From the NCBI GenBank assembly GCA_022842935.1, contig JALHOP010000004.1:124001-188000 (forward strand): 64,000 nt of DNA, given 5' to 3'. The translations under genes were made by a program, and so were the position numbers. The stretch comes from Myxococcota bacterium (GTDB lineage Bacteria; Myxococcota; XYA12-FULL-58-9; JALHOP01). A model generated the notes under the pieces. That model was not told where the DNA came from. It worked only from the letters and a program-made list of their open reading frames with translations, and ran no database searches. Positions 7,335 through 31,809 of this stretch are shown here, piece by piece; position 1 is the stretch's first letter, and each line of letters opens with the position of its first letter.

Positions 7335-7464
7335 TCGATTCGTCGTTTATCGCGGGTCGGTCATCGATGTCCGATCTTCGGTAGACGGTTTTCGGTCGTC
7401 GGTAGTCGGCGGCCGGTGATGTCAGCAAGTTCGCAACGCGAATACTGCTGACGAGGTTTAGAGA
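7335..7464 (+). promoter_or_regulatory. rpsN-rpsH spacer with TCGGT-like repeats and a strong stem-loop
   Basis: The first 80 bases are a degenerate repeat of short TCGGT/TCGAT-like words (about 7350-7415). A compound hairpin follows: GTCAGCA 7421-7427 with TGCTGAC 7446-7452, and inside it TTCGC 7430-7434 with GCGAA 7438-7442, loop AAC. The hairpin ends 12 bases before the rpsH ATG, so it could affect ribosome access. No T-run follows it. Confidence 0.5.
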
Positions 7465-8789: not shown

Positions 8790-8939
8790 CGAATTGCAAC
8801 CCACTGGGGTGGACGTTTATCGCGGCTGATGCCGCTAATCGGCCGCCACTTGAGGCGGCCGAGAAGTTCTAACTGTTCGAGTCCGGACTGGCGTGCCGGA
8901 CGAGGCGGTCCGAAAAAGCGGACCAAAAGAGGTTTCTAA
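8778..8939 (+). promoter_or_regulatory. Five-hairpin rplR-rpsE intergenic region
   Basis: The region holds five stems in a row: TTGCAATTC 8778-8786 with GAATTGCAA 8791-8799 (the loop TGAC contains the rplR stop); GCGGC 8822-8826 with GCCGC 8831-8835; CGGCCGCC 8840-8847 with GGCGGCCG 8854-8861; GTCCGG 8881-8886 with CCGGAC 8896-8901; and GGTCCG 8907-8912 with CGGACC 8919-8924. The ribosome-binding site AAAAGAGG lies directly after the last stem. There is no T-run. I infer a structured leader for rpsE or a processing/attenuation element. Confidence 0.6.
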
Positions 8940-9795: not shown

Positions 9796-10269
9796 ATGCG
9801 TTTGCATGATTTGAGAGCGCCCGAGGGCGCCAATGTGAAGCGAACCCGCCGTGGTCGTGGCGAAAGCTCCGGTCTTGGTAAGACGGCCGGTCTCGGCGGT
9901 AAGGGCCAGACTGCGCGTACCGGCAAGGGCAAGCGTGGTCGCGGCTTCGAAGGTGGCCAGGTACCCATGTACCGCCGCATGCCGAAGCGTGGCTTCAAGA
10001 ACAAGCAGTTCCGGACGCCGACCGCCGAGGTCAATCTCGACACCCTCTCGAAGAAGTTCCCGAAGGGCGCCCAGATCGATCTCGTTGCGCTGCAGGCCGT
10101 TGGCCTCGCTCGCAAGATCGACGTTAAGGTCCGTGTTTTGGGACGCGGTGAGATGGCGCATGCTTTGAACATCTCGGCGCACCACGTGACCGACGGTGCC
10201 AAGAAGAAGATCGAAGCCGCTGGCGGCAAGGTCAACGTCATCGTTGATCCGACCCCCAAGGCCGCTTAG
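9796..10269 (+). CDS. rplO: 50S ribosomal protein L15
   Basis: L15 is a late-assembly protein of the large subunit. The 157-residue product begins MRLHDLRAPEGANVKRTRRGRG, contains the Gly/Lys-rich GQTARTGKGKRGRGFEGGQ region at about residues 37-55, and has a C-terminal alpha/beta domain that ends near AAGGKVNVIVDP. It is the last ribosomal gene before secY. Confidence 0.99.
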   Translation: MRLHDLRAPEGANVKRTRRGRGESSGLGKTAGLGGKGQTARTGKGKRGRGFEGGQVPMYRRMPKRGFKNKQFRTPTAEVNLDTLSKKFPKGAQIDLVALQAVGLARKIDVKVRVLGRGEMAHALNISAHHVTDGAKKKIEAAGGKVNVIVDPTPKAA

Positions 10270-10270
10270 C

Positions 10271-10387
10271 TCGAGCGCGATTCATCACCCCAGGCGGCGT
10301 TGTCGGCTGCGGGCGCTTCTCACGGGCCAACAACGCCCGCTGCGGTGCGTCCTCGCCTCCGCCGCCTGGTGTGCGACTCGCGCTCGA
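10271..10387 (+). promoter_or_regulatory. Nested three-tier inverted repeat between rplO and secY
   Basis: Three stems nest inside each other. The outer is TCGAGCGCGA 10271-10280 with TCGCGCTCGA 10378-10387. The middle is CCAGGCGGCG 10290-10299 with CGCCGCCTGG 10360-10369, extended by CAC/GTG across one mismatch. The inner is GCGGGCG 10309-10315 with CGCCCGC 10334-10340. The unit follows the rplO stop by one base and ends 78 bases before the secY GTG. No T-run follows. I infer a structured RNA that controls or processes the secY-adk part of the transcript. Confidence 0.65.
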
Positions 10388-10465
10388 TCGCGAAGTTGCG
10401 TGAGACGCTTGATTTCAGTGTGCGCGGGCTCTAAGCATCACGCCTCGCTTTTGGAGTGACCGACC

Positions 10466-11779
10466 GTGGCCTCTGGTTTCTGGAATATCGGCAAGATCCC
10501 CGAGCTGCGCCGCCGCCTGCTGTTCACGGCTGGTCTGCTCATCGTGTACCGCATTGGCATCTTCATTTCGGTGCCGGGTGTCGACCGCGTGCTCCTCGCG
10601 CGCGCCCTCAATCAGCTATCGGGCACGGTCTTCGGCATCTTCAATATGTTCTCGGGCGGCGCCTTCGAGCAGGCGAGCATTTTCGCGCTCGGCATCATGC
10701 CGTACATCAGCTCGTCCATCATCATGCAGCTCTTGACCGTCGTCATCCCGACGCTCGAACGCTTGCAGAAAGAAGGCGAGGCGGGTCGCCGTAAGATCAA
10801 TCAGTACACGCGCTACGGCACCATCGCCCTTGCCTTCGTGCAGGGTTACGGCATCGCGAACTACCTCGTGCAAGGGCCGGGCGGCGCTCAGGTCGTCCGC
10901 GATCCCGGATTCTTGTTCTACGCGATCACCATTCTGACCCTCACCTCCGGCACCGTGTTTGTGATGTGGCTGGGCGAGCAGATCACCGAGCGCGGCATCG
11001 GCAACGGTATTTCGTTGATCATCTTCGCCGGCATCGTGGCGCAATTGCCTTCGAATCTCATCGAAACCGCCCGCTACATGGCGGACGACGTGCTGCAGCC
11101 GGTCCAAGCGATGGTGTTGCTCGCGCTCGTGCTCGGTGTCATCGCGGCCATCATTTTCTTCGAGCAGGCGCAGCGGCGTATCCCGGTGCAGTACGCCAAG
11201 CGGCTGGTCGGCAAGCGTACCTACGCGGGTCAGTCGACGCATTTGCCCCTGAAGATCAACTCGTCGGGTGTCATTCCGCCGATCTTCGCCTCGTCGATTC
11301 TCTTGCTGCCCGCGACGCTCTCGAGCTTCGTGGGCGCCGACTGGCTCTCGTCGGTGACGCAGTTCTTCCAGTCGGACGCCTGGTTCTACAATAGCGCCTA
11401 CGTCCTGCTCATCGTCTTCTTCTGCTACTTCTACACTGCCGTCACCTTCAATCCGGTCGACGTCGCCGACAACATGAAGAAGTATGGCGGCTACATTCCG
11501 GGCGTCCGTCCGGGCAAGAAGACGGCCGAATACATCGACCACGTGCTTTCACGCATTACCTTTGGCGGAGCTCTCTACATCTCTGCCATCTGTGTGCTGC
11601 CGACGGTCATCGTGTCGCAGTTCGAGGTTCCATTCCGCTTCGGCGGAACCGGCTTGCTCATCGTCGTCGGTGTCGCGCTCGACACGGCCCGTCAGATCGA
11701 GTCGCATCTCATCACCCGCAACTACGACGGCTTCGCGGGGGCCAAGGGGCCACGCATCCGGGGCCGCCGGGCTTCTTAA
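10466..11779 (+). CDS. secY: Protein translocase subunit SecY
   Basis: SecY is the membrane channel of the Sec pathway. The 437-residue product has the ten membrane segments expected and family blocks such as [34 protein letters not shown] and the cytoplasmic loop [10 protein letters not shown]. The GTG start at 10466 has GGAG nine bases upstream. It is separated from rplO by a 196-base structured spacer and followed six bases later by adk. Confidence 0.98.
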
Positions 11780-11785
11780 GGTCCT

Positions 11786-12448
11786 ATGCGGATACTTCTG
11801 CTGGGTAAGCCCGGTTCGGGCAAAGGCACGCAGTCCAAGCACATCGCTGCGTCGCGAGGTATCCCAGCGATCTCGACCGGGGATTTGATCCGTCAGGCGA
11901 TTCGTGACGGCACCGAGCTGGGCGTCCGCTTCAAGAGCTTCACCGACCGTGGCCTTCTCGTACCCGACGACCTGATGATCGAGATGGTGGCGGAGCGTCT
12001 GGCCAAACCGGATTGCAAGCCTGGTTTCTTGCTGGACGGTTTCCCGCGCACGGTGCCGCAGGCCGAAGCGCTCGACCGCATGCTCGCCGAGAAGGCAACA
12101 CCTTTGCAGGCAGCAGTGAATCTCGACGTACCAGATGACATTCTCGTCGAGCGCGCCACCGGCCGCCGCAGCTGTCCGAAGGACGGAACGAGCTACCACA
12201 TCAAGTTCAAGCCGCCGAAAACCCTCGGCGTTTGTGATGCCTGTGGTACGGCGCTCATCCAACGTCCGGACGACACCGAAGATCTCGTGAAGTCGCGGCT
12301 CGAAGAGTACCGCAACAAGACGCAGCCCCTCGTCGCGTTCTACCAGGCGCGCGGTATCCTCATCGATCTCGACGGCGTGGCCACTCCCGAGCAGGTCGAG
12401 CGCCGCATCGAGAGCGCGCTGAACAACACGGTGCGAGCAACCGCTTAG
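11786..12448 (+). CDS. adk: Adenylate kinase
   Basis: It interconverts ATP+AMP and 2 ADP in the cytoplasm. The P-loop GKPGSGKGT is at residues 7-15, the AMP site TGDLIRQA follows near 31-38, and LLDGFPRT is at 82-89. It is a long-LID form: Cys130, Cys150 and Cys153 with Asp133 where the fourth Cys often stands, so a Cys3-Asp metal site is plausible. In many genomes map and infA follow directly; here both are displaced. Confidence 0.97.
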
Positions 12449-12579
12449 TCGAATCGGCTTGCGGCTGCGACTGTGATGTTGCTCACGCGTGTGTGGTGAC
12501 CACGTGACAGGCGTCCAGTGGGGCGCCAAACCCTTGTTTTGTTGTAGCGTCGAAGTGTCATCAAAGGTGGAGTGCGGTC

Positions 12580-14658
12580 ATGGCGAATGAACGTCCGGCG
12601 GGTGTCCCAGCAGGAGCTACGTGGGTCGAGGAAGACAAGGAATGGATGCTCGGGTCCGTTTCAGCGGACGGCAAGAAGCAAGGCCCGTACAAATATTGGC
12701 GCGCCGACGGCACCCTTTGCAACGAGTGCATGATGGTCGACGACCAACCGCACGGCCCGTTCAAGCGCTTTCACGAGAACGGCGAGGTCTCCCAGCAGGG
12801 CACGTTCGAGCGCGGCGCGCTTCATGGCACGCGCACCTGGTTCTCGACAGACAGTGTGACGACCGAGCGTATGCACGAAGGTCGCATGTCGAAGAACGTG
12901 TGGCGCTCCGAGATGGATTACGTCCGTAACACCGTCGTCGCCGTACGTCACTTCGACCGGCAAGGCAGACGACTCTTGCCAAGCGGCGAGCCATTTCCCG
13001 ATCGCCCAGAAGGTGTGGCCGCTGAAGCGGAGTATCACGAGAAGCAGGACCAGTGGGCGGCCGGCAGCGCGCGTGAGGACCACTCCAAGGTTGGTCGATG
13101 GCGCTACTGGTACAAGGACGGGACGCCGAAGGAAGATCTCAACTACGTCGACGGCAAGAAGAGCGGCGCAGCGAAGACCTTCCACGAAAACGGACAGGTC
13201 TTCGAAGAGGGCACGTACAAAGACGACGAGCGCCACGGGCTGTGGAAACGCTACGGCGAAGACGGCAAGCTGCTCGTCGAAGCGACATTCGCTGAAGGGA
13301 CGCTGCACGGTCGCTACACCGACTGGGACCCTGACCTTGCGCCCACTTACGCAGCCGAGGGCATGGTCGCCTTGCTATCCGAGTACGACCAGGGCGTCCC
13401 GACCGGGGGCTGGCACCTGCTCGGCGCGGGCGGAAAGCGCCTGGTGTCTCGCGACCTCGGCGTCATCGGCGACCAGGAGTCGGTTGCGGACTCGCCGGCC
13501 CTCGAGAACGTTCGCAAGAGCGCGGCCGAGTGGACCGAGCTCGCGCAGACTCTCCTGCGTGAACGGCGCTTCGGCGAGGCTATCGTCGCACAGGCTCGGG
13601 CAGCGGCGCGCTCGGCGAACGTCGACTCGCTGACCGCTTCGATTGCCAAGCTCGCGCTGCCGACGACGCCGGACGGTGCCGAGAGCCTCGGCGCCGAGAT
13701 CCTCGAGAACGCGTCCGAGCACTATCCCGACCTGCTGGCCGGCTTCCTACGGGGCGCCGACCCGTCCAAGCTATGTCGGGCCCTGTCGATCGTGGCGGAC
13801 AAAGCGAACCGAGCCTTCGCTGCGCTGGACCTCATCAACGCCGCCTTGTTGCTCGCGCCGCAGCACAAGGACTACCTCTTCACGCGGGGCCTCGTGCTCA
13901 TGCGCCTGGGCCTGCCGGAGCAGGTGAAGCTCGACGTCGCCGAGCTCGCGACTGTGGAAGAGCGAAGCGCGGCGTTTCTCGGCGACTACAACCGCGTGTT
14001 GTTCCGTAAGTTCGACTTCTGGCCGAGCTCGCGAAAGCCCGAGACCTACTACGATGGGCTTCCCGATGGACCGGAGCAGAGCCTCGAGGCGATTCGCAAA
14101 ATCATCGGCAAGTATGCGAAGCGGCTGACGCTCGTGCGCCAAGCGCTGACCAAATACGTACGCCCCGAGGTTCCTTGGATGATCGCCGACCTCGAGCGCC
14201 TCGCCGCTGGTGCAGAGCTTGTCGAAGACAGCTGGGAGACCGAAGAGGACGAGAGTATCTCCGTCGATGAGACCCTGAGTCTCGATGAGCACGAGCTACC
14301 CGACCTGCTTCGCCTTGCCCGCGCTGATTGGGCGGCGCTGACCTGGTTGTGTTGGAGCGTTGGCGAGAGCACGGTCGCGCTGCCGTCCGCGATCAAAGCG
14401 CCTGCCGATTTTGGCAAGGCCTGTGGCATGGCGGTGCAGCACTACTGGCGCGTCCGCGATAAGGTTCACATGAACGGTTACGGGGCGCGGCATAGCAACG
14501 TCCCGGGCTTCGAATGGGAGGGTATCGATATCGACGCCATGCACCCAGCGCTCGCGGGGATCGCCGAGCAGGAGTACGCTGAGGTCGCAGCGGTCTTCAG
14601 GTGGCTCACTGACCAGAGCAACCGGTCCCCGTGGCAAGATAACCTCCGAGGCAGCTGA
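12580..14658 (+). CDS. YwqK/MORN-type repeat protein with helical C-terminal region
   Basis: Residues about 20-130 and 165-290 contain repeats of the form G-W/Y-x-Y-W/F-x-x-x-G (for example KYWRADGTL, FKRFHENGEV, RYWYKDGTPK, KRYGEDGKL), typical of YwqK-like MORN-2 repeats. The remaining 400 residues are predicted mostly helical with TPR-like stretches (ALDLINAALLLAPQHKDYL) and an acidic segment near 540-565. No signal peptide is seen, so it is likely cytoplasmic. The stop overlaps the start of the FHA gene (TGATG), so the two are probably co-translated. I do not assign a function. Confidence 0.8.
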   Translation: MANERPAGVPAGATWVEEDKEWMLGSVSADGKKQGPYKYWRADGTLCNECMMVDDQPHGPFKRFHENGEVSQQGTFERGALHGTRTWFSTDSVTTERMHEGRMSKNVWRSEMDYVRNTVVAVRHFDRQGRRLLPSGEPFPDRPEGVAAEAEYHEKQDQWAAGSAREDHSKVGRWRYWYKDGTPKEDLNYVDGKKSGAAKTFHENGQVFEEGTYKDDERHGLWKRYGEDGKLLVEATFAEGTLHGRYTDWDPDLAPTYAAEGMVALLSEYDQGVPTGGWHLLGAGGKRLVSRDLGVIGDQESVADSPALENVRKSAAEWTELAQTLLRERRFGEAIVAQARAAARSANVDSLTASIAKLALPTTPDGAESLGAEILENASEHYPDLLAGFLRGADPSKLCRALSIVADKANRAFAALDLINAALLLAPQHKDYLFTRGLVLMRLGLPEQVKLDVAELATVEERSAAFLGDYNRVLFRKFDFWPSSRKPETYYDGLPDGPEQSLEAIRKIIGKYAKRLTLVRQALTKYVRPEVPWMIADLERLAAGAELVEDSWETEEDESISVDETLSLDEHELPDLLRLARADWAALTWLCWSVGESTVALPSAIKAPADFGKACGMAVQHYWRVRDKVHMNGYGARHSNVPGFEWEGIDIDAMHPALAGIAEQEYAEVAAVFRWLTDQSNRSPWQDNLRGS

Positions 14659-16055
14659 TGAGCGGTCGCACAATAGAAATTGCCGAGCATCTCTGGGTCG
14701 TGCTCGAAACCATGGCGCGCGACATGGCGACCGAGCCGCGCGCTCTGGTGAACCAGGCCGTTTTCAACTGGGCGCGCCAGAATGGCTATTCCGTGTCTGC
14801 TGCAGCGTCGCCGCCTGCCGCGCCAGCGGAGCAGCCGGCTGCATCACTGGCTTCCGCAGCGGTCAGCGCGCCCGCGCGTCCCCAGCCACGGGAGGCGCCG
14901 ACGGAACAGCCGAAAGCCTCGGGGGTGGACGAGCCGGCCAAGACGGTCGCCAAGACGGTGGACGAGCCAGCCAAGGTGGTGGCCAAGGCGGCGGAGGAGC
15001 CTGCCAAGGTGGTGGCCAAGGCGGCGGACGAGCCTGCCAAGGTGGTGGCCAAGGCGGCGGTTGCGTTCCCCTCCGTTTCTGCGCGTATCGCGGCGATTGA
15101 CGCGGAAGTCGATCGCTACTGTCTCGCTCCGGTCGTCGTCGATGCCCAGTTCGGTGACGACGACACGTCGCAAGACGGGGACGACGACGAGGGTCCCGCA
15201 GAAGAAGAAGAGTCGGCGCAACCACCGGACGACGCGGGCAGTGAGCTCGCGGACGACGCCGCCCAGGGGGATGAAGACGACGACGTGGGCGACGCGACTG
15301 AAGAACCGCCGGTGGCGCACGTGCGTCCAGGCCCAGTCATTGATGTTGCCGTGCTGCGTGTCGCTGCGGCCCAACGTGTCGTCGCCATCGATCGGGCAGT
15401 CGATGACGTGCTGCCGCGCCCGCTGGCGGCGGCGCCCATCCCTGTCCCAGCCCCGGCCCCGCCCGCGGCTGCCGCCCCGGTTTCGGCGCCGGCTCAATTG
15501 CCCCCCGCAGCACGGCCGACTCTCACCGTGGCGCCGGCGACCCTTGCAGCGTCGTCGCCCCCAGCGCCCAGCCCGGCTCCGGCGGTTGCGACCGCGGCGG
15601 CGGAGGCCCCAGGGTCCGGAAAGGCGCGGCCCCGGTTGAACACGAGCGAGCTCAACAACTTGCTCGGCGAGGTCGACGACATTCTTGGTCAAAACGTCGT
15701 GCGCGATACGGCTCTGTCTCCGGCGATCAGCTTCGTGCTCGAGCTGCGCGTCCGAGGTACCGACCAGGTTTGCATCGTCGCGACCGAGCCCGTGGTCATC
15801 GGTCGTGGCTCGCACTGCGATCTCGTCATCAAGTCCGCCGAGGCCTCGCGCGAACATGCCGTGGTCACACGCAAAGGCGCGACGTATGTGATCGAAGATC
15901 GCGGGTCGAGCAACGGCACCTGGTTTGGGGCCGAACAGGTGCGCTCGCGCGAGATCCACAGCGGTGACGTGTTCCGAATCGGCAGCGTCGACGTCGTGGC
16001 TTCGTTCAAGGTCGCCGACGCGCAAGCGAAGGCCGGCCGACAAATCACGGCTTGA
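14658..16055 (+). CDS. FHA-domain protein with repeat linker
   Basis: The C-terminal 100 residues (about 365-455) are a forkhead-associated domain, which binds phospho-Thr: GRGSHCD, SREHAVV and DRGSSNGTWF are all present. The N-terminus (EIAEHLWVVLETMARDMA, then LVNQAVFNWAR) is a helical module seen ahead of FHA domains in myxobacterial proteins. A long Ala/Pro linker joins them and contains four 11-residue repeats and an acidic stretch. Coupled to the upstream YwqK-repeat gene. It converges with the next gene, overlapping by 11 bases. It may read phosphorylation by a kinase such as the one at 26535. Confidence 0.88.
   Translation: MSGRTIEIAEHLWVVLETMARDMATEPRALVNQAVFNWARQNGYSVSAAASPPAAPAEQPAASLASAAVSAPARPQPREAPTEQPKASGVDEPAKTVAKTVDEPAKVVAKAAEEPAKVVAKAADEPAKVVAKAAVAFPSVSARIAAIDAEVDRYCLAPVVVDAQFGDDDTSQDGDDDEGPAEEEESAQPPDDAGSELADDAAQGDEDDDVGDATEEPPVAHVRPGPVIDVAVLRVAAAQRVVAIDRAVDDVLPRPLAAAPIPVPAPAPPAAAAPVSAPAQLPPAARPTLTVAPATLAASSPPAPSPAPAVATAAAEAPGSGKARPRLNTSELNNLLGEVDDILGQNVVRDTALSPAISFVLELRVRGTDQVCIVATEPVVIGRGSHCDLVIKSAEASREHAVVTRKGATYVIEDRGSSNGTWFGAEQVRSREIHSGDVFRIGSVDVVASFKVADAQAKAGRQITA
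14928..15059 (+). repeat. Four tandem 33-bp repeats inside the FHA gene
   Basis: Copies lie at 14928-14960, 14961-14993, 14994-15026 and 15027-15059. The last three differ at only a few bases, the first is more diverged. Each encodes an 11-residue unit of the type D/E-EPAK-V/T-VAK-A/T-A/V. Copy number could vary between strains because the unit keeps the frame. Confidence 0.95.
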
Positions 16056-18456
16056 CGCCTAACTCGGCGGCTGTTTTGCCGCCCCGTTGGCGTAGGTAGG
16101 CGACGTTCGCTTCGTGGTTGGCCTTCATATGGTGGTCAAGCGCTGTCTTACCTTCGCCGTCGACGAGATTGACCGCAGCGCCCCGTGCGAGCAGCAGCTC
16201 GCTCATCGTGGTTGAGCGCGAAGCTGCGAGCGGTACTGGCCAACACGAGCGTTTCGTGCTCGCGGCGCTAGCTCCGTTCGGTCGAACGCCCCTGTCGAGC
16301 AAAGCCTTCGCTGCGGCGACGTCGTCATTGGCAAGCAGAAGGCCAAGCTCGGCCTCATCGGCGAGTCGCTTGGATAGGGCCTGTTTGTCTTCCGCTATCG
16401 CGGGCATGTCGAGGGCCGCCGCAATGTCGGCATGCTCGACGTCCCATGTCACGGTCGAGCGCCACGCAGCCTCGGCTTCGAGCTCCCGCAGCATTGCGCG
16501 GTTGTTCCCGAGGAAAGCCGCATCGTGTAGCTCTTGGAAAGAGCGGCCCGCGATGCCGACGACGCCGTAACACTCGGGCAGGGCGAAGCGCTCGCGCAAC
16601 GAATGGATACGGCCCTCGCGGACGTCTTCTGTGAGGGCGTCTTGCGGCGGCAGCGGTTCGGCGGGACGCCAGGCCGCAGCGTCGAGTGCGTAGCTCTCGA
16701 CCACGAGATGTTGACGCTCGAGTGCGCCGTTCGGCGCGGTCGTACCCGCGACGCCCTCGATTGGGACATGGACGCCGACGACGTGCGTTGCATCGGGTGT
16801 TATCGCCGCCACATGTTGCCACCCCATCATGAGCTCGGAGCTGTGTGGGATCTGGGCTGTTGCCCGGCGTTCTGGGTCGAAAACGACCAGCGCCCTTGGC
16901 GTCGACGCCAGCGCGAAACCTGGTGGCGTACCGTCCAGCCGCAGGTCCGTGGCGGTGGCGGAGTACCGCATCATGATTGTGTCGGTTGCCTCACGGCGTC
17001 GGAGCTCGGCGCCCGGGGCGAGCAGCGCACCCGCAAACGAGTAAGTGCCCGTTCTACCCATGCCGAGAGCCGCGCTGACGCGCTCAGCATGCATGGCGGC
17101 CTTGACCTCGGAGATAGTGGCAGCCTTTTCGCCCACTCCAATGGCGCCGTCCGCGACCTCGCTGGAAGCGCGCTCTCCCGCCGAGTCGTAAAGTGGAGAC
17201 CAGCGAACCAGGGCACGCGTCCGCGCGACGGGGTTTGGGTTGGTCGAAAGGGCGAGGAGCGATCGTGCGTCTCCCCATGTGTTGGCCCCGTTCAAGAAGG
17301 CCGTGGCTTCGAGCTCGAGGCTGTCGCGCCGGTAGAGCGCCGCGCCGCGCTCCGTGACCACCGTGACGGTGCTTGCGTCGACGCGTACTCTGTCTGGCGA
17401 GCGAAGGTTGCGAACCAGCGCGAAGGGCAGGGGAGCACGGGCCGCGCGAACGCCAGTCGCCGCGTCGAGCGCGAACAGCACAGCTGCTGTCGACACATAG
17501 ACGGTGTCCGCGGTGACACACAAAGGCCCGCGTGGCGGCGGTAGCTTGTCGCTCGTCCAGCGCACCTCTCCCGTCGATAGCGCGAGCGTCGTAACCTTGG
17601 CGGTACGCGCCGCGCTGTCGACGCTCATCGCGTAGACGGTGTCGCCCTCAACGTCCGCGCTCAACAAGCCTTTCCCGTGAGCCGAGCGCCACCAGCGAAT
17701 CCCCCCGTTCGCAGTGTTCCAGGCGGACAGGCCGGCGTCGGTCCCCACGAGGAGCGTCCCCCCAACGAGGCGAGCTGCAACTACGGCCTGATCGTCACTT
17801 GCGGGCTTTCGCCAAAGCTCTCGCCCCGAGACACTATCGATGCACGCGACATCGCTTGCGGCCAGGCAGACCATGGTGTCGCTACTCGTCACCGTCGGTA
17901 CGACGCTCGCTGCGCGCGGCGTGAAAGAGTGCTCCCACAGCGTCTTGCCGCGACCAAGATCGATCGCGCGCAGGAGGCCCTTTGCGGCGATGAGGAGCCG
18001 GCTCCGACTACCGTCGAGCGCTGCGATGGCGTCTGCTTCGAGACGGTGCTCCCAGAGCGTGACGCCGCTATCGAGCGCGATGGCGAGCCAGACGGTGCGC
18101 CCCGCGCGAGAAAGCTGCAGTACGACTTTTCCCGCGGCGACGTCGACTACAGTGTATGCCCCGTCCTGAGCCGACGGCCGCTTGCCCCGCCAGATGACGG
18201 CGCCAGATGGCCAGTCGAGCATGACGAGCTCACGCTGGTCGAATTGCCCACCGTCCGCGCTCAAGCCAACCGCGCCAACCAAGAGACGGTCGTCCGGCAT
18301 GAAGCTGAAGATGTCGACGAATGGAGCATCGATGGGCCGCGACCAAACGGGTAGCGAGCTACCTACCGGCCGCGCCGTGGTGAGGCGATCGGGGCGCTGC
18401 GGGGACGAACAGCCGAATGAGGCGAGCGCTACGAGCAACGCGATCGACGATTTCAC
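16045..18456 (-). CDS. Lipoprotein with PQQ-like beta-propeller and ankyrin repeats
   Basis: A hydrophobic N-terminus ending in FGCSS suggests lipidation at Cys16. Residues about 60-370 hold propeller-like repeats with SG/TG-x-x-x-W signatures (WPSGAVIWRG, LDSGVTLWEHR, GRGKTLWEH, VSGRELWRK, STGEVRWTS), as in BamB-like PQQ proteins. The last 110 residues contain ankyrin-type repeats (AAAKALLDRGVRPNG, LLLARGAAVNLVDGEGKTALD). The start is GTG 18456. A TATAGC lies six bases upstream on the same strand, so the mRNA may be nearly leaderless. It is probably an envelope scaffold; the partner is unknown. Confidence 0.82.
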   Translation of the reverse strand: MKSSIALLVALASFGCSSPQRPDRLTTARPVGSSLPVWSRPIDAPFVDIFSFMPDDRLLVGAVGLSADGGQFDQRELVMLDWPSGAVIWRGKRPSAQDGAYTVVDVAAGKVVLQLSRAGRTVWLAIALDSGVTLWEHRLEADAIAALDGSRSRLLIAAKGLLRAIDLGRGKTLWEHSFTPRAASVVPTVTSSDTMVCLAASDVACIDSVSGRELWRKPASDDQAVVAARLVGGTLLVGTDAGLSAWNTANGGIRWWRSAHGKGLLSADVEGDTVYAMSVDSAARTAKVTTLALSTGEVRWTSDKLPPPRGPLCVTADTVYVSTAAVLFALDAATGVRAARAPLPFALVRNLRSPDRVRVDASTVTVVTERGAALYRRDSLELEATAFLNGANTWGDARSLLALSTNPNPVARTRALVRWSPLYDSAGERASSEVADGAIGVGEKAATISEVKAAMHAERVSAALGMGRTGTYSFAGALLAPGAELRRREATDTIMMRYSATATDLRLDGTPPGFALASTPRALVVFDPERRATAQIPHSSELMMGWQHVAAITPDATHVVGVHVPIEGVAGTTAPNGALERQHLVVESYALDAAAWRPAEPLPPQDALTEDVREGRIHSLRERFALPECYGVVGIAGRSFQELHDAAFLGNNRAMLRELEAEAAWRSTVTWDVEHADIAAALDMPAIAEDKQALSKRLADEAELGLLLANDDVAAAKALLDRGVRPNGASAASTKRSCWPVPLAASRSTTMSELLLARGAAVNLVDGEGKTALDHHMKANHEANVAYLRQRGGKTAAELGVKP

Positions 18457-18511
18457 GTGTTCGCTATAGCACCGGTAGCCATCCGCCGTCGCGGCCAGTT
18501 ATGACACACGA

Positions 18512-19036
18512 ATGGCGCTCCCCGTCATTCGCACCGAACGCCTCGTGCTTCGCGAGCGCGCCCTCGACGATCTCGAAGCCTGCATTGCGATGGACAATGA
18601 TCCGGAGGTGCGCCGCTTCATCGCTTTGCCGATGGAGGGAGACATGCACCGCGCCTTCATTCGGGGGCGCATGATGCACCGGTATCCCGAGCACTTGGGT
18701 TACTGGTCGGTCCTCGCCGACAAGAAGTTCGCCGGCTGGATATTGCTCATCCCCCGGGAGCTCGAGGGGCCAGAGGTCGAGATTGGATGGCGGTTCGTTG
18801 CCGAAGCACGCGGCAAGGGATACGCGACCGAGGCGTCGGCGGCGGTACTGCGTCATGCGCTAACGACCGCGGGCTTGCGCGAAGTCGTCGCGGACATCGA
18901 CCCAGAAAACAAAGCGTCACGACGGGTGGCCGAGAAGCTTGGCATGCGCCACGTGAGGACGTGGCTCGAGTCGGGGCGCCCGACAGCGCGCTATTCGATT
19001 TCTGCCGCTACGACCTCACTTGGTAACCTGGGCTGA
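18512..19036 (+). CDS. GNAT-family N-acetyltransferase (RimJ/RimL-like)
   Basis: The 174-residue product begins with the RimJ/L pattern RTERLVLRERALDDLEA and has the acetyl-CoA loop EARGKGYATEA at about residues 97-107, followed by DIDPENKASRRVAEKLGM. These are the acetyl-CoA binding and stacking elements of the family. RimJ/RimL themselves acetylate ribosomal proteins, but many relatives act on other substrates, so the target is open. It is divergent from the propeller gene and 20 bases upstream of map. Confidence 0.88.
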   Translation: MALPVIRTERLVLRERALDDLEACIAMDNDPEVRRFIALPMEGDMHRAFIRGRMMHRYPEHLGYWSVLADKKFAGWILLIPRELEGPEVEIGWRFVAEARGKGYATEASAAVLRHALTTAGLREVVADIDPENKASRRVAEKLGMRHVRTWLESGRPTARYSISAATTSLGNLG

Positions 19037-19056
19037 CATCCGCCACGTCTCCAGCT

Positions 19057-19845
19057 ATGGTGCGCGCGCAGATGGAACAGAAGAAGCGCAAGGGCATCGT
19101 CCTGAAGTCACCCCGTGAGATCGAGATCATGCGCGGTGCCAATCAGCACGTGGCGGAGGTCCTCGAGATCATGGCGCAGGCGGTGAAGCCTGGCGTCAGC
19201 ACGTGGGACCTCGACCAGATCGCGCGTGCGGAGATCAAAAAGCGCGGGGTTGGTAGCGCGTTTCTTGGCTACCACGGTTTCCCAGCGACCATTTGCGCAT
19301 CGCCCAATGAGGTGATCGTTCACGGCATCCCCTCGAAAGAGGTCGTGCTCGAGGAGGGCGATGTCATCGGCCTCGACATTGGGCTCATCTACGAGGGCTA
19401 CGTGGGAGATGCGGCTCGCACGATCCCGGTTGGCTCTATCGCCGCTGAGACCAGACGGCTTCTGGACGTCACCAAAGAGTGTCTCGAGCGAGCCATCAAG
19501 GTGTGCACGCCGGAGCATCGCCTCTCTGACATCGGCAAAGCGGTTCAAGACCACGCGGAGGCGAACGGCTACGGCGTCGTCCGCGAGTTCGTCGGCCACG
19601 GTATTGGTACGACGATGCACGAGGATCCGCAGGTGCCAAACTACTTCAGCGGACCCAAGCCACGCCTGAAGCCAGGTATGGTCATCGCAATCGAACCGAT
19701 GGTGAATCAGGGCACCCACGAGGTCGACGTCTTGGCCGACGGCTGGACGGCCGTCACCCGCGACCGCAAGCTCTCCGCGCATTTCGAGCATAGCGTCGCC
19801 ATCACTGAAGGCGAACCGATCGTGCTCTCGCGCCTCTACCATTGA
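19057..19845 (+). CDS. map: Type I methionine aminopeptidase
   Basis: It removes the initiator Met from nascent proteins. Counted from the ATG at 19057 the five metal ligands are Asp107, Asp118, His181, Glu213 and Glu244, all present, and His89 lies in the VHGIP motif. An in-frame ATG at 19072 is an alternative start; neither has a clear ribosome-binding site. map normally lies between adk and infA; here it is 6.6 kb from adk and 12 kb from infA, but still between them. Confidence 0.96.
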   Translation: MVRAQMEQKKRKGIVLKSPREIEIMRGANQHVAEVLEIMAQAVKPGVSTWDLDQIARAEIKKRGVGSAFLGYHGFPATICASPNEVIVHGIPSKEVVLEEGDVIGLDIGLIYEGYVGDAARTIPVGSIAAETRRLLDVTKECLERAIKVCTPEHRLSDIGKAVQDHAEANGYGVVREFVGHGIGTTMHEDPQVPNYFSGPKPRLKPGMVIAIEPMVNQGTHEVDVLADGWTAVTRDRKLSAHFEHSVAITEGEPIVLSRLYH

Positions 19846-21299
19846 TGCGCGCTACGGGTCTGGCTCTTGCCGCGCTGTGCGCCTGCGGTGCTCCGCTGCG
19901 GCAGACAGGTCCGAAGGTTGGCTCCCCAAGCGCCGCGCGCGGCGGCGTCGTGATCGTACTTGCACATCGAGCCGACGGCAAAACCGGATTCGGGTCGGGG
20001 ATCCTGCTACCCGCGAACGGTGACATCCTCACGAATCGGCACGTCACCGACGGGGCGACCTCGTTGGGAGTGCTGCTCTATGATCCCAAGCGGCCGAGCT
20101 ACGCCGCCGAGGATGGTGGGCTCGGTCGCTACGTATTCGAGAACGAAGGGGCGGTAACGTCTGCTGCGCTTGTCCGCGAGAGCGTCCTCTTGGATATGGC
20201 GCTCGTCCACGTCGATGCTGACACGTCCTTGTATCCGAAGCTCACGGTGCGGCCAGAGCCAGTCGAGGCGGGCGAGCAGGTTTACGCCATCGGTCATCCC
20301 GGCGAATCTGTCTGGTCGATCACGCAAGGTCTCGTGAGTGCCGTTCACAATGGCCTTGTCCAGACGGATGCGGCCATCAGCTTCGGCAACTCGGGCGGCC
20401 CCCTTGTGGATGCGCAGGGTCGGCTCGTTGGGCTCAATACGTCGCGACTGCTCGGCGACGTCGATGGGGTAGGATTCGCACGCCCGGTCGGTCTCATCCA
20501 ATCGTTCATCGATGACTCCGCTGAAGCGGAACTCGATTTGTCGAGTCCGGCTTCGGCGAGTACAGCCTGCACGCGGGCAGTGGAGATTGCCTCATCGCGT
20601 ATCGCGCCGTGCCTTGCGGCTTTCGACTTCTACGATGTTCGCCAGGACGCGATGGCCGAGGTGACGGAGCTGCTTTCGCTGCCGGAGCCTGCTCGGTCAG
20701 TGGTGCAGACCCGTGGCACCATGCTCGACCGGGAGAGCTGGGTCGCGCGCTACGTCCGGATGGTGCAGGCGTATGTCGCCGACACGCGTAAAGACGACCT
20801 CAACAGCGAGATCCAGCGCATGGCGGACGAGGTGGCGCCGCTCACGCCGGCCATCAAACGGCAGATCTTGGCGCACATCGAGCGACCAGAGGTCAAAGGC
20901 CGCTTGGGGCACCTCTACGCAGCAACCGAGACCGACCTTCGTGCCGAGCAGCTGGCGCATGAGCAGCGGCGCACGGGAAGGAACTACGCTGACGACGGAG
21001 CGGCCCTGCGGCGCAGCATCCGCATGGGGGTGCGCGTCGACGAGGTCGTCATGGTCGATGCGAGTCAAGCCTGGGTCCTCTCCGTGGGGCGCAACCCTGA
21101 CGGCTCGGTGTATCGCGACACCGAATATTGGGTCAGAGCAGGCGACACCTGGGCTCTGCGGCTGCCGCGCCCCACTGAGGCGGCAAGCGCCCCGGCGACC
21201 TGGCCAGCGCCCGAGACCTACGACGATCGCGTCAGGGTCTCGCGCGACCTGAAGATCGTCTGGCTGCTTGCTCGGGTCCGGCAGCCCGACGCAAGCTAA
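19845..21299 (+). CDS. Trypsin-like (S1C) serine protease lipoprotein
   Basis: From the ATG at 19845, which overlaps the map stop, the protein has a lipobox-like LCAC with Cys14, then a chymotrypsin-fold protease. The triad is His66 (TNRHV), Asp117 (LLDMAL) and Ser183 (GNSGGP). There is no PDZ domain. Residues 220-484 form an unrecognised C-terminal region. The relation to map is positional only. Its catalytic domain resembles the one at 37902, but the C-terminal parts differ. Confidence 0.87.
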   Translation: MRATGLALAALCACGAPLRQTGPKVGSPSAARGGVVIVLAHRADGKTGFGSGILLPANGDILTNRHVTDGATSLGVLLYDPKRPSYAAEDGGLGRYVFENEGAVTSAALVRESVLLDMALVHVDADTSLYPKLTVRPEPVEAGEQVYAIGHPGESVWSITQGLVSAVHNGLVQTDAAISFGNSGGPLVDAQGRLVGLNTSRLLGDVDGVGFARPVGLIQSFIDDSAEAELDLSSPASASTACTRAVEIASSRIAPCLAAFDFYDVRQDAMAEVTELLSLPEPARSVVQTRGTMLDRESWVARYVRMVQAYVADTRKDDLNSEIQRMADEVAPLTPAIKRQILAHIERPEVKGRLGHLYAATETDLRAEQLAHEQRRTGRNYADDGAALRRSIRMGVRVDEVVMVDASQAWVLSVGRNPDGSVYRDTEYWVRAGDTWALRLPRPTEAASAPATWPAPETYDDRVRVSRDLKIVWLLARVRQPDAS

Positions 21300-21383
21300 A
21301 GCTCCCGCGCGGGGCGTGGGTAGAAAACCAGCGGCGAGCGCCGCAAAGACGGGCCGCCCTTGGGGCCAAGCGAAGCAAACGCC

Positions 21384-22760
21384 GTGGCGCAGCGCATTCC
21401 TCAGAAGGTCCTGGTGGTCGGCGGCGGCATCAGCGGACTCGCGACGGCGTTCGAGATGCAGCGCCTCGCCCGGGAGCGCGGCGAGTCCCTGATCGTCGAG
21501 GTGCTCGAGGCAGAGCCCTGGGTTGGGGGGAAGCTTCGAAGCCGGCGGCATGAGGGCTTCTTGATTGAGGAGTCCGCTAACGGCTGGCTGCGCGCGAGTG
21601 GCGCGACCGACGCCCTGTGCGAGGCCGCCGGCGTTGGCCCCAGCATCGTGCAGGCAGGCGAGGCCGCTGGGCACCGCTACCTGGTCGCCAAGGGGAAGCT
21701 TCGGGCTTTGCCGCAATCTCCGTTTCAGCTTGCGACCAGCGACTTGTTGTCGCTCGCCGGCCGTGTGCGCGTCGCCAAGGAGCGCTTCGTCCCCGCCGCT
21801 GTCGGCCAAGACGACGAGAGCGTGGCTGCGTTCGGCCGGCGCCGCTTCGGGCCCGAGGCCACCGAGCTCTTCATCGACCCGCTGGTGACCGGTGCCTGCG
21901 CTGGCGACCCTGAGCGCTTGAGCTTCAGCGCGTGCTTTCCAAAACTCGCCGCTCTCGAGCGCACGCATGGCAGTCTCATCAAGGCGATGATGGCTGGTCG
22001 AAAGGCCGGGGTCGACGGAGCGAGCGTTCCCGACGCGCGGCGTTTGACGTCGCTCACGGGTGGCATGGGCGGTTTGTGCGAGGCCTTGAGGAGCGCGCTT
22101 GGCGACTCCGTCCGCTGCGGGGGACGAGTGGTCCGCGTCGAACGCATGGGTGGCTACCGCGTTCATTTCGCCGACGGGACGACCGCCGTCGGGGACGCGG
22201 TGGTCGTTGCGGCCCCGGCCGAGGCGGCGGCGCGCATGCTTGCGAGCCTCGACGATTCGCTGGCCCGCGAGATCGGCGCCATCAGCTACAACGCAGTTGC
22301 TGTGGTCGCGCTCGGCTTCCCAGAGGAAGCGGTCAAGCTCAAGGGCTTCGGCTTCATCGCGCCACATCGCGAGCGCCGGTTCATGCTTGGCACGCTCTTC
22401 GAAACCAATCTCTTCGCCGGCAGGGCAAAGGCCGGTTACGTGCTGACCCGGACCATGGTCGGCGGCACGCGCCGACGCGAAGCTCTCGAAGCGACCGACG
22501 ACGAGCTGGTCACGAGCGTTCGCAACGAGTTGGCCGATCTCGCGAACATCTTGGCGCGACCTGCGCTTACGCAGGTCATCCGCCACCCGCGCGCCATCGC
22601 GCAATACGAGGTGGGACACGCGGCCCGTCTTGGTCGTATCGACGGGCGTCTCGCAAACCATCCAGGACTCTACCTGACGGGAGGAGCCTACCGCGGTGTC
22701 TCGGTGAATGATTGCGTGGCCGATGCGACGGCGACCGCGCGACGGGTCATCGGCGTCTGA
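21384..22760 (+). CDS. hemY: Protoporphyrinogen oxidase, HemY/PgoX type
   Basis: It oxidises protoporphyrinogen IX to protoporphyrin IX with FAD and oxygen. The dinucleotide-binding motif VVGGGISGL begins near residue 9 and the C-terminal FAD segment LYLTGGAYRGVSVNDCV is typical. I choose GTG 21384 because the NAD/FAD fold begins eight residues on; TTG 21360 would add eight residues. The length of 458 is normal. No other heme gene is nearby. A related flavin oxidase is less likely. It ends 20 bases from the convergent hydrolase gene. Confidence 0.88.
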   Translation: MAQRIPQKVLVVGGGISGLATAFEMQRLARERGESLIVEVLEAEPWVGGKLRSRRHEGFLIEESANGWLRASGATDALCEAAGVGPSIVQAGEAAGHRYLVAKGKLRALPQSPFQLATSDLLSLAGRVRVAKERFVPAAVGQDDESVAAFGRRRFGPEATELFIDPLVTGACAGDPERLSFSACFPKLAALERTHGSLIKAMMAGRKAGVDGASVPDARRLTSLTGGMGGLCEALRSALGDSVRCGGRVVRVERMGGYRVHFADGTTAVGDAVVVAAPAEAAARMLASLDDSLAREIGAISYNAVAVVALGFPEEAVKLKGFGFIAPHRERRFMLGTLFETNLFAGRAKAGYVLTRTMVGGTRRREALEATDDELVTSVRNELADLANILARPALTQVIRHPRAIAQYEVGHAARLGRIDGRLANHPGLYLTGGAYRGVSVNDCVADATATARRVIGV

Positions 22761-22780
22761 GGTCTGCTCATCGCTGGTTT

Positions 22781-24277
22781 TCAGAACGGCGCATCGCTCG
22801 CATGCGGGACGCTGCCGTCGAACAGCATGCGCTCGCTCGTTTTCCCAGTCCGTGGGGCTCGCCAGAACTCGCCCACGAGGTCGCGTAGCGAAACCCCGTC
22901 GTAAGTCGGCACAGGAAAGAGCCAAACCAGGGGGTCGACGATGAGTCCGTGGAGATTCTCATCGGCGGGCGTCTCCTGTGGATCCGCTGGCGCGTACAGC
23001 CACGTGATCGGCTCCATGGCGTCGGTCATGTCGTCGTAATAGGCATCCCGCGCTGCGAGGTCTTGTGGCGTCGAGGCGGAGACGATTGGAAGTAGGTAGT
23101 CGCCCATGGCGTTCTGGTCGAAGCGGTTCATGGCCACCATGGTGCGAATGCCCCAGCCGAGCGGAGGAGCGCGCGTTGTTGACGTGTACGCGAGGGGCCC
23201 TGGTCCGCATGCAGCAAGGCCCAGGCCGCGCTCCGCCGCGAGAGCAGCGCACTTCGGGTCGACGACGCTGCGATAGATCGAGTCGACTGCCTCGAAAAAA
23301 GCGTCAGGCTCGACGTCGCCGCCTTTGAACGGATACCCGGGTTCGTCGAAAGTCCCCGTGCGGAACGCCGACCCCAATAGCAAGGCGAAGCGCTGCTCCG
23401 CAATGGCGGTCGGCATTCTCTCGGCGATGACGTTGATTTGCCTTTGCGCACCAACGCTCCCCGCGGAGCTCCCCGTCAACAAGACCTCGCTTGTCGCGTC
23501 GTTGAGGCCGTAGGCGTAGAAGAGGATATCGACCATGGCTTCCACATTGTGGTGGCCGGTGAACACGAAGGGCACCGGCGGCGCGTTGCTCTTCCATGCG
23601 ACGTCTTGGGGCGTCGTGTTGGTCCCCCCCCAAAGGTCACTCGAGCAATAGCGACCATAGGCATGGTTAGCTGCGTGAAAGACCGGGTTGACGGAAGGGT
23701 CGCGCGAGAAGAACGTGCCGTTGTTGCGCGCCGAGCTCACTGGCGCGCCATCGGCGGCCTCGTTGCGCGAGGACACGAAGCCGACAGGCCTTCCCACGCA
23801 CGACCCATACGTGCCGTCGCAACGACCGCCACCCTCCAGATAGATGACCCACGTGTTCGTGGGCGCGCTCGCCATCGAGACGTACAACGCGAACGTGGAG
23901 CCGTCGTTGCACTGCGCGTTTTGCCAACGCTCGTGACGTTCGGCGGGTCGGACCGTCTCGGTGAGTTGGGCGCCAAGCGCGCACGCGTCGACGTCGTATC
24001 CCGAGCAGTCGGCCCGACAGCTTGCCTGGCCGCTCGCCCAGACCGCAGCGAGGCTCGTACAATCGACGACGCCCCCATCGCATAGCTCCCTCCCGTCGAG
24101 CGTGCCGTTACCGCAAAGCGACGGAGGCGCAACGTCCTCTGGACCTTCGTCCGCAGGGGGGGACAGCTCGTCGGGCGGCGGGGAAGGCTCTGGCGCGCGT
24201 CCCGGGGGTGCGGGGTCGCCGCAGGCGGCGACGAGCGCGGTGAGGAACGAGAGACGGCCAATGTGTGGTCTGCTCAT
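22781..24277 (-). CDS. Pectinacetylesterase/Notum-like lipoprotein hydrolase
   Basis: The signal ends in LVAACGD with Cys19 as the lipidated residue. A Pro/Glu/Asp-rich linker and a Cys-rich segment follow (CGNGTLDGRELCDGG at residues 55-69), the type common in myxobacterial surface proteins. The hydrolase domain has YLEGGGRC (oxyanion region, 147-153), CSSDLWGG (211-218) and the nucleophile elbow GSSAGS with Ser271. ATG 24277 has GGAG five bases upstream. It likely removes acyl groups from polysaccharide or protein; the substrate is not known. It is downstream of the GH51-like gene on the same strand. Confidence 0.85.
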   Translation of the reverse strand: MSRPHIGRLSFLTALVAACGDPAPPGRAPEPSPPPDELSPPADEGPEDVAPPSLCGNGTLDGRELCDGGVVDCTSLAAVWASGQASCRADCSGYDVDACALGAQLTETVRPAERHERWQNAQCNDGSTFALYVSMASAPTNTWVIYLEGGGRCDGTYGSCVGRPVGFVSSRNEAADGAPVSSARNNGTFFSRDPSVNPVFHAANHAYGRYCSSDLWGGTNTTPQDVAWKSNAPPVPFVFTGHHNVEAMVDILFYAYGLNDATSEVLLTGSSAGSVGAQRQINVIAERMPTAIAEQRFALLLGSAFRTGTFDEPGYPFKGGDVEPDAFFEAVDSIYRSVVDPKCAALAAERGLGLAACGPGPLAYTSTTRAPPLGWGIRTMVAMNRFDQNAMGDYLLPIVSASTPQDLAARDAYYDDMTDAMEPITWLYAPADPQETPADENLHGLIVDPLVWLFPVPTYDGVSLRDLVGEFWRAPRTGKTSERMLFDGSVPHASDAPF

Positions 24278-24376
24278 GGTCACTCCGACTGCAAGCTGGG
24301 TGCCGCCGTTCCAGCGGGCTTTTCGCGGTCTTTTTCGGGCTCGCCTGATCCCTCGCGTGACCAGGTCGCTTCGGAG

Positions 24377-26365
24377 CTAGCGGCTGAAGCGGACACCGGT
24401 GATCGAGGTCGGGGGAAAGTCGATGGCGAGGCCGTCCGCGCTCGGCGTAACCGTGATTGCTTCGATTGCAACGGCGCGGGGGGTTGTGGGGTTATTGGCG
24501 TCGGTTGGCGAAGTGCTCGCCAAGCGCTCGACCGCGACCAGACCATCGATGGAGAAGGGCGCGGCAACGCTGATCTCGCGGGTCAACGTGGTCTCGGGCG
24601 TGGTGTTGATCACCAACAGGTCCAACTCCGTCGTTTGTGCATTGGTGCTCGCCAGCACGATGAGCTCGGGCACGTCCGCTGTCGCAGACATGGTCCCGGC
24701 CTCGTCGAGGAAGTAGTCGTAGCGGCGGTTCGCGGCTGGCGGACTCACGTCGACCGCGACACGCCGTGCTGCGGTGTAGTCGCGCAGCAGTTTGAGCCCC
24801 CATGCCTCCGCCGTCGGGATCGCCGTCGCGGGGTTCACAGAGCTTTGACCTCCCACGTTCTGCCAGGTGAGGTAGTTGGGGCCTAACACGGCCACCTTGT
24901 CGTCGATGAAGGATGCGAGCACGTAGCTCGTCACCAGACCCACCGCGCCAAGTGCGGTGTTTCGCAGGTTGGGTAGGCCACCATCCATGGTGTCTTGCCA
25001 AGGGTGGACTTCAGTACCGTAGATGCGCAGCGGCGTGTCGTAGGCCTTGGCGGTCGCGTCGAGTCGCGTGATGAGGACGCTCACCCGCGACATCATGTTG
25101 GCGAAGGGCGCTTCGGGATAGAAGTCGGGGACCGGGTAGTTGTCGACGATGTGCCACTGCCAGCCGTCGAGGGGGAGAGTGGGGTCGAGCGTGTAAGCCT
25201 GGTCGATGTAGCCAAAGCTTCCGGAGATGGCGATCGACGGATCGACCAGCTTCATGGCCTCGGCGTATTGACGCAGACCGGGGAAGTCGACGACGCGAAA
25301 GTCCGTGAAAACGAACACGCCAGCGGGAGGGATGGCGCCGTTCACGCCGTCGCCGAAGCGAATCTCGCCGGTCGCTGCGTTGAGCTCGTAGTGGTTGTCG
25401 AGAGGGCCAGACGAAGCGAGATCGTCCACCATCGTCCACGTGGTGGTGCTGTCGGGTGTTTCGCCGAGGCGAACCGTCACCGACGCCCGCTCGACGGTGG
25501 GCAGTTTGATGAAGCGTCGCTGGTTGGGGGCGCTGGTGGTTCGCAGGGCATCGTCGTTGTAGGCCCAGGTCGTTGGCGTAACGGCTTGGTAGTTGGTGAA
25601 CGAACGACTCCCCCCGACCACGACCATGCGTCTGTCTGCGGTGATTAGGGCTGCGTTGGGTGAAAGAAAATCATCATCCGCGTCCCAAATCTGCCAGATG
25701 CGGCCGTTGCCCCACTCGTTGGCGAGCTCCCAGTGGTGGATGCCGTAAGGCTCGGGGTGCCCATTGGCGGCCCGCACATTCGCCCACGCCGTGCCTCCGT
25801 TCGGGTTCGTTCCGACTGGCGCGTTCATGTACTCGACCCAGTTGGCCGCCGCTGCGAGGCCGAGGTTGATGTTGATGACACAAAGGAGCTTGCCGCCCAT
25901 GTCTTCGGCGAGGCGACCGGCCTCATCGAGTCCAAAGACGTTTTGTTCGGGCTGCCCTGTAAATGCGTTGAACGTCCAGCGGCTCTCGACCGGCCCGATA
26001 GCGGTCCGCCAATCGAAGAGGTTCGCGTAGGTGCCCCCGGGGTAGCGCAGCCAGTCCGTCCCAACCGAGACGAGAGCCTCACGGAGCGCGAGGTTCGTGC
26101 TGCCGTCACTGGCCACGAGCCCCTGGCCGCGGTTGATGTAGGTCATGTTGTAGCCAATAGCGGGCAGCTCGCCGAAAACTTGGGCCGGGTCGACCGCGAG
26201 ACGGGGCGCGCCCGGTGGGTCGCTGTCGGTGGGGTCCTCGTCGCTTGGTGGCGGGGGCGCGCTGTCGCTGGGGGTGTCACCACCAGGGCTCTCGTCCGGG
26301 GGGGCTGTGGGGGTTGGGGCGCTACACGCGGCAACCAGGAGCGTGAGGACAGCGACGAAACGCAT
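24377..26365 (-). CDS. GH51-like (arabinofuranosidase-type) lipoprotein
   Basis: Signal LVAACSA with Cys14, then a Pro/Asp/Ser-rich linker to about residue 52. The catalytic part has RYPGGTYAN, WELANEWGNG with the probable acid/base Glu217, and IYGTEVHPWQ with a candidate nucleophile Glu452, as in clan GH-A enzymes such as GH51 and GH39. A C-terminal beta domain follows. ATG 26365 begins the signal peptide. It forms an apparent two-gene minus-strand unit with the esterase-like lipoprotein, 99 bases downstream. The sugar specificity is inferred only at family level. Confidence 0.8.
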   Translation of the reverse strand: MRFVAVLTLLVAACSAPTPTAPPDESPGGDTPSDSAPPPPSDEDPTDSDPPGAPRLAVDPAQVFGELPAIGYNMTYINRGQGLVASDGSTNLALREALVSVGTDWLRYPGGTYANLFDWRTAIGPVESRWTFNAFTGQPEQNVFGLDEAGRLAEDMGGKLLCVININLGLAAAANWVEYMNAPVGTNPNGGTAWANVRAANGHPEPYGIHHWELANEWGNGRIWQIWDADDDFLSPNAALITADRRMVVVGGSRSFTNYQAVTPTTWAYNDDALRTTSAPNQRRFIKLPTVERASVTVRLGETPDSTTTWTMVDDLASSGPLDNHYELNAATGEIRFGDGVNGAIPPAGVFVFTDFRVVDFPGLRQYAEAMKLVDPSIAISGSFGYIDQAYTLDPTLPLDGWQWHIVDNYPVPDFYPEAPFANMMSRVSVLITRLDATAKAYDTPLRIYGTEVHPWQDTMDGGLPNLRNTALGAVGLVTSYVLASFIDDKVAVLGPNYLTWQNVGGQSSVNPATAIPTAEAWGLKLLRDYTAARRVAVDVSPPAANRRYDYFLDEAGTMSATADVPELIVLASTNAQTTELDLLVINTTPETTLTREISVAAPFSIDGLVAVERLASTSPTDANNPTTPRAVAIEAITVTPSADGLAIDFPPTSITGVRFSR

Positions 26366-26534
26366 GGGACACAAAGCAGCAAGACCGATGCCAGTGATGG
26401 GTGCCGGAGGTTTTGGAGGGCACGAGCCGCCCTGGGTTCTCGTGGGACCAGTCCGGAGGGCAGGGCGATCCGCGCGGAGATCATGTGGTGCGTGTCGCGA
26501 AGCAGCTGTTAAGCTTTAGATTACGAGCCCGTCG

Positions 26535-28079: not shown

Positions 28080-28101
28080 AACATCTTCCCATGAACCAGC
28101 C

Positions 28102-29871: not shown

Positions 29872-30662
29872 TCGTCCTTGGTCTCGTGCTTCTCCTTGGC
29901 GCAGCCGATCTCGACGCGGATCTCGCCACCGCAGAGTCACAGCTCGCGGCCTATGATTTCGCCGGCGCTATCGCCACACTAGAGCGCTGTGAGCGCGTCA
30001 GCGGGAGGCGACTCGAGCAAAGTGTTCGCCTTTACGAGGGGCTCGGGATCGCGCTCGCGAGCAGCGGCAAAGCAAGTCAGGCCGAAGAAGCGTTTCTTGC
30101 TCTCGCAACCATCGCACCCGAGCGGGCCATTCGCTACACGCTCTCGCCGAAGATCACCTTCGTCTTCGAGCGTGCGCGCGAGCGCGCCGCCCAGCAGGGC
30201 ACGCCGTCGCTCCAGCTGTTATGGCCGCTCACCGCTGACGCCAACGCGCCCGTAGCCATCGACCTCGAGGTTCTCGCGAACCCGCGCGAGCTCCTGCGGC
30301 GAGGCGTGCTGATCGCCGAGCGCCCCGGTATGGCCGAGCGGTCATTCGCTGTCGATCTCCCTCCAGCGGGGACGCGCGCGACAGTCATCGTCCCGCCGCC
30401 TGAGGTCCCTGTCAGTGGGCCGGGCCAGCTACGGCTGCACCTCGTCGGTGTCGACGAGCACGACAACGAGATCACCCGGGTTGGTACCGCAGTCCAGGCA
30501 CGCACGGTGGCGCTCTCCTACGAGCGGCCAAAGGCCTGGTACGAACGACGGTGGGTTTGGATCGTCTCAGGTGTCGTCTTCGCTGGAGCGGTGAGTGGCA
30601 CCGTGTACGCCCTAACGCGGGAGCCATCGCCGACGGTTCCTGTCTCTGTCGACGCGCGTTGA
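29868..30662 (+). CDS. TPR-like protein with C-terminal membrane anchor
   Basis: ATG 29868 overlaps the previous stop. The product is 264 residues: a signal-like start (VLGLVLLLGAADLDAD), a TPR-like segment (QLAAYDFAGAIATLERCE, then EAFLALATIAPERA), a conserved RYTLSPKITFVFERARERA block, a beta-rich middle, and one C-terminal membrane segment near residues 225-248. The protein at 58897 has the same order, including a block of similar spacing (LSPSKYPPVFISAFKEVRARV), so the two are likely paralogues. It may link the kinase and lipoprotein to an envelope complex, which is inference. Confidence 0.75.
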   Translation: MIVLGLVLLLGAADLDADLATAESQLAAYDFAGAIATLERCERVSGRRLEQSVRLYEGLGIALASSGKASQAEEAFLALATIAPERAIRYTLSPKITFVFERARERAAQQGTPSLQLLWPLTADANAPVAIDLEVLANPRELLRRGVLIAERPGMAERSFAVDLPPAGTRATVIVPPPEVPVSGPGQLRLHLVGVDEHDNEITRVGTAVQARTVALSYERPKAWYERRWVWIVSGVVFAGAVSGTVYALTREPSPTVPVSVDAR

Positions 30663-31697: not shown

Positions 31698-31714
31698 CCG
31701 CCGCCGTTTTTGCC

Positions 31715-31743
31715 TTGCCGGCTCGGAGTCGCTTTGGTATAGC
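31715..31743 (+). promoter_or_regulatory. Sigma-70 type promoter for infA and the alpha operon
   Basis: TTGCCG at 31715-31720 and TATAGC at 31738-31743 are separated by exactly 17 bases. Transcription would begin near 31750, giving a leader of about 60 bases before infA. This fits a new transcription start after the 19-kb insertion that cut the alpha block off from the spc operon. Confidence 0.6.
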
Positions 31744-31809
31744 GCCGCTTCCTTTTCGGGCCGGATGTGCCTAACGGCGCGGTTCGACTCGTGAAGGGCG
31801 AGAGGGAGC

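Follow-up and report, generated by a model that had tools for sequence, protein, structure and literature searches.

The DNA analyzed here is a 64,000-nucleotide stretch from a Myxococcota bacterium, referred to below as the window. Within it, the ribosomal-protein genes of the spc operon give way to secY-adk. rplO is the last ribosomal-protein gene before secY-adk and is separated from secY by a spacer of 196 nt, 117 nt of which are occupied by a nested imperfect hairpin (Table 1). A stable structure is thus placed between two co-directional genes, and the gene order and shared strand suggest that a single operon runs across it. Approximately 19 kb of mostly non-ribosomal genes (12449-31809), including a map-like gene at 19057-19845, lie between adk and the alpha-operon genes, the latter starting again near 31.8 kb.

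Table 1. Coordinates of genes and sequence features around the rplO-secY junction of the window
Feature	Position	Strand	Basis or remark
rplO (ribosomal protein L15)	9796-10269	+	Stop codon TAG, 10267-10269
Nested imperfect hairpin, 117 nt	10271-10387	+	Arm pairing, folding, shuffles
Outer arm, 5' side	10271-10280	+	10/10 pairs with 10378-10387
Outer arm, 3' side	10378-10387	+	10/10 pairs with 10271-10280
Middle arm, 5' side	10290-10299	+	10/10 pairs with 10360-10369
Middle arm, 3' side	10360-10369	+	10/10 pairs with 10290-10299
Alternative hairpin	10286-10347	+	22-nt arms 10286-10307/10326-10347, 82% complementary, -31.9 kcal/mol; prediction only
Linker from hairpin to secY, weakly structured	10388-10465	+	Folding versus shuffles
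GATTT, fits RNase E-type RNWUU	10411-10415	+	Weak; such sites are common by chance
GCTTT, second RNWUU-type site	10447-10451	+	Weak; such sites are common by chance
GGAG, likely secY Shine-Dalgarno sequence	10453-10456	+	By eye
secY	10466-11779	+	GTG start
adk	11786-12448	+	Directly 3' of secY

The original prediction described three strictly nested inverted repeats forming a folded element of 117 bases right after rplO. The element indeed starts one base past the rplO stop codon, and its outer and middle arms form 10 perfect pairs each, just where they had been placed. The outer helix extends to 12 paired positions of 13 (10271-10283/10375-10387) and the middle helix to 13 of 14 (10286-10299/10360-10373). 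The innermost repeat, described as 7-bp arms, was only approximate: an inner helix is present and is weaker, with six pairs (10311-10316/10347-10352), one of them G-T, followed by short helices up to 10327/10335.

The segment from 10271 to 10387 folds at -73.3 kcal/mol, compared to -50.4 +/- 3.6 kcal/mol for dinucleotide shuffles (z = -6.3), and none of 2,000 shuffles folded as low. When the whole spacer was shuffled, its best 117-nt piece reached the energy of the hairpin in 0 of 300 cases. The nested repeats are not a chance product. The hairpin also had a lower energy than all 4,259 117-nt segments sampled within the window. On contig C1 of the same genome, 9 of 22,216 segments across 400 kb were as low or lower; these lay at three places, namely, two hairpins by four-helix-bundle-like genes and, at the start of the contig, a low-complexity coding repeat rich in glycine. 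The genome background was taken from the window and these 400 kb, with genes called by a home-made codon-usage caller. Co-directional spacers had a mean z of -0.85, with 10% below -3, while convergent spacers were the most structured class, with 35% below -3, and coding stretches of matched lengths had a mean z of -0.17. The open linker brings the score of the whole 196-nt rplO-secY spacer to only -2.5. The two strands fold alike (-73.3 and -75.1 kcal/mol), so that the sequence by itself is silent on whether the element acts as RNA or as DNA.

The region between the hairpin and secY was less folded than expected, as 197 of 200 shuffles of 10388-10475 folded at least as well. We estimate that chance alone would give about half an RNWUU site in a sequence with the length and base composition of the linker, and the match at 10411-10415 may be such a chance occurrence. 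No sigma-70-type promoter for secY was found in 10388-10465 by consensus or by eye. The hairpin has the GC-rich stem-loop of a Rho-independent terminator, and no U run directly follows the stem: the sequence past 10387 reads TCGCGAAGTTGCG..., with the first TTT at 10413. A terminator scan of the + strand near the hairpin gave no match, and a search of Rfam 15 with the hairpin (E values up to 10) returned nothing credible and nothing above the gathering score. On the growing RNA, the alternative hairpin is predicted to form first and to be displaced once 10360-10387 has been made; forcing this alternative costs ∼11 kcal/mol relative to the final long fold.

Further copies of the hairpin were absent from its own genome, where the other matches were pieces of at most 36 nt with E values of 0.07 or worse. 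A repeated palindrome of the REP or MITE type was ruled out on this basis, as the element is single copy. The class to which the genome belongs was represented by one order with eight genomes, and in a DNA search of all eight, the hairpin matched only itself. Absence of the arms in close relatives with the same gene order had been named as a reason to reject the prediction, and at the level of the order the outcome went against it: in five genomes of the same order in which secY follows rplO, the arms were absent and the spacers (45, 118, 155, 137, and 82 nt) were all dissimilar, the closest relatives compared being members of the order rather than of the genus or family. The absence from these relatives indicates either fast turnover or no function. 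We conclude that the hairpin is real, statistically strong, and lineage specific. A literature search for rplO-secY hairpins found nothing direct. The rplO-secY spacer of genome G054 (L014 / L152), at 352 nt, consists largely of repeated TTCAAACCGCTGGCGCGGTTTGAA-type palindromes (z = -9.4).

The same junction was compared across the phylum. For rplO-secY spacers of at least 60 nt in 16 families, the median of the family-median z values was -2.4, a comparison that was settled on when the first spacers were already known and that leaves out short-junction families because spacers under 60 nt were unscored. The junction was more structured than 71 co-directional spacers sampled within 20-kb regions of the phylum's genomes (median z of -1.0; P = 0.005, one-sided Mann-Whitney test), 58 other ribosomal-operon spacers (median z of -1.2; P = 0.007), and 113 co-directional spacers of the genome containing the window (P = 0.0001); these tests set family medians, drawn from varying numbers of genomes in partly non-independent families with script-placed gene ends, against single spacers. 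Ribosomal-operon spacers overall did not differ from controls (P = 0.43). The excess of structure across families is modest.

In one Myxococcaceae-like family (f13), the junction carries two hairpins flanking a conserved GCTTGTGTAGGCT (L188 434-560, minus strand; L191 142-275; and relatives). Pairing holds in 97.6% of cells over 28 distinct spacers, and five pairs have changed on both sides, compared to 2.1 in shuffles. Four of these are among the 10 pairs of hairpin 1, and the fifth is an inner one in hairpin 2, whose outer stem is nearly invariant. The covariation score of 0.134 versus 0.085 was higher than that of any of the 500 shuffles or of any slid version; because the shuffles leave relatedness in, this is support for the hairpins and not proof. 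As far as their sequences indicate, the f13 hairpins are unrelated to the window element, and an Rfam search on related junctions, f13 included, returned nothing credible.

The reading that we favor, with a probability of roughly 0.4, is that the element is a fast-evolving intraoperonic mRNA hairpin that acts as a 3' stabilizer and processing boundary where the ribosomal-protein genes of the spc operon meet secY-adk. We infer three events, transcription through the element, cleavage, and protection by the hairpin. The transcript would be read through the hairpin into secY-adk and then cut in the open linker 3' of it. The hairpin would stop 3'-to-5' exonucleases and prolong the life of the upstream ribosomal-protein message, and secY-adk would be left on a separate, less abundant fragment. 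As an outcome, ribosomal proteins and the secY product would be made in different amounts. The extreme stability (0 of 2,000 shuffles), the start immediately after rplO, and the open linker and ribosome-binding region point to this reading, as do the structured junction in 16 families and the f13 hairpins. The genome also encodes two RNase E/G-family genes, PNPase, and Rho. The reading is weakened by the absence of the hairpin from same-order relatives, by equal folding of the two strands, by an RNase E-type site that is possibly due to chance, and by the modest size of the family excess.

Protective stem-loops within operons are typically shorter and less stable than the window hairpin, and the REP sequences of malE-malF are multicopy. 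Like the malE-malF type of 3' stem-loop, the window hairpin is a very stable structure inside an operon, it directly follows the stop codon of genes whose products are required in greater quantity, and RNase E/G and PNPase genes are present in the genome; it differs in being single copy. Protective structures of the malE-malF type and programmed decay are known in operons (PMC5927463), and the stability of a stem-loop together with an RNase E site sets gene ratios in a reporter operon (PMC10667835). Intraoperonic stabilizer hairpins and partial terminators that lack a U-tract are both kinds of element that are already known.

A partial terminator of the latter kind, working as a hairpin alone or with Rho, would stop most polymerases after rplO and let some continue into secY-adk. 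We consider this somewhat unlikely. It would fit the position directly 3' of the stop codon, the presence of a rho gene, and the pattern of spacer structure in this genome, where convergent spacers, in which terminators are expected, exceed co-directional ones in the share below a z of -3. The GC-rich stem after a stop codon is shared with Rho-independent terminators, but the window hairpin has no U-tract, gave no match in the terminator scan, has a far longer stem, and is intraoperonic, no promoter being evident downstream. As no separate sigma-70-type promoter for secY was found, strong termination would starve an essential gene. For many bacteria, it has been proposed that hairpins lacking a U-tract serve as termination units, although the support is computational and from RNA-seq (PMC8355165). 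Those hairpin-cluster terminators likewise lie less than 80 bases from the stop codon and dispense with the U-tract; they are clusters of short hairpins, whereas the window contains one long nested hairpin.

It is also unlikely, though conceivable, that the palindrome has no selected function and arose by neutral events, such as templated mutation or decay of an insertion, in a tolerant spacer. A single-copy, lineage-specific element that folds equally on both strands would fit such an origin, and other strong inverted repeats occur in unrelated places, for example, by the four-helix-bundle-like genes on C1. However, other families of the phylum also carry strong hairpins between rplO and secY, one set of them covarying, strings of hairpins occupy further ribosomal-cluster spacers of the genome, and long perfect arms are unlikely to persist without selection unless they are recent. 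A third proposal, which we regard as very improbable, is a regulatory leader of secY-adk in which the mutually exclusive folds 10286-10347 and then 10271-10387 form a switch sensing a ribosome at the rplO stop codon or a bound protein. The complementarity of the alternative arms and their predicted early formation would suit a switch, and because the outer stem starts one base past the stop codon, a terminating ribosome would cover it. The energetic advantage of the long fold argues against a balanced switch, strong sequestration of the ribosome-binding region is not seen, and neither an Rfam match nor conservation was found. Ribosomal-protein autoregulatory leaders, e.g., those for S8 on the spc operon and S4 on the alpha operon, are likewise structured RNAs within ribosomal-protein operons. 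In contrast to such leaders, which precede a regulated ribosomal gene, the window hairpin lies where the ribosomal part ends on its 3' side, and it lacks an Rfam match and conservation.

It had been suggested that the element might set secY-adk apart from the ribosomal genes. The boundary element itself was confirmed and the recurring structured junctions fit this suggestion, while the lack of the arms in the five same-order genomes speaks against it; a regulatory role of this kind is plausible. More broadly, the rplO-secY junction of this phylum might be under recurrent selection for an RNA boundary element with fast turnover of sequence and fold, unrelated hairpins arising there repeatedly and adjusting how much ribosomal protein is made relative to SecY-Adk; we think this improbable at present. 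If it were true, gene order would be kept while the RNA element setting the ratio is reinvented in each lineage. The recurrence at this junction is of greater interest and can be tested, while a lone hairpin in one genome is of modest interest.

Other ribosomal spacers of this genome resemble the hairpin-cluster terminators. The rpsD-rpoA spacer (33562-33744) contains three strong hairpins in a row (z of about -6.7) and, as a whole spacer, is statistically stronger than the rplO-secY hairpin. The rpsN-rpsH (7335-7464) and rplR-rpsE (8790-8939) spacers are strongly folded into strings of hairpins and have the 12-mer CGTTTATCGCGG in common. As a genome-wide motif, this 12-mer was rejected, with four copies compared to two for the reversed control. 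The rpsN-rpsH spacer also contains a TCGGTNN heptamer tract resembling arrays on contig C1. Two four-helix-bundle-like genes, diverged from each other and recognized by eye in the translation, lie at L127 1160-2090 and point in opposite directions. A very strong hairpin (arms of 31 to 35 nt) stands just 5' of each start codon, with flanking arrays of 7/14-bp TCGG repeats.
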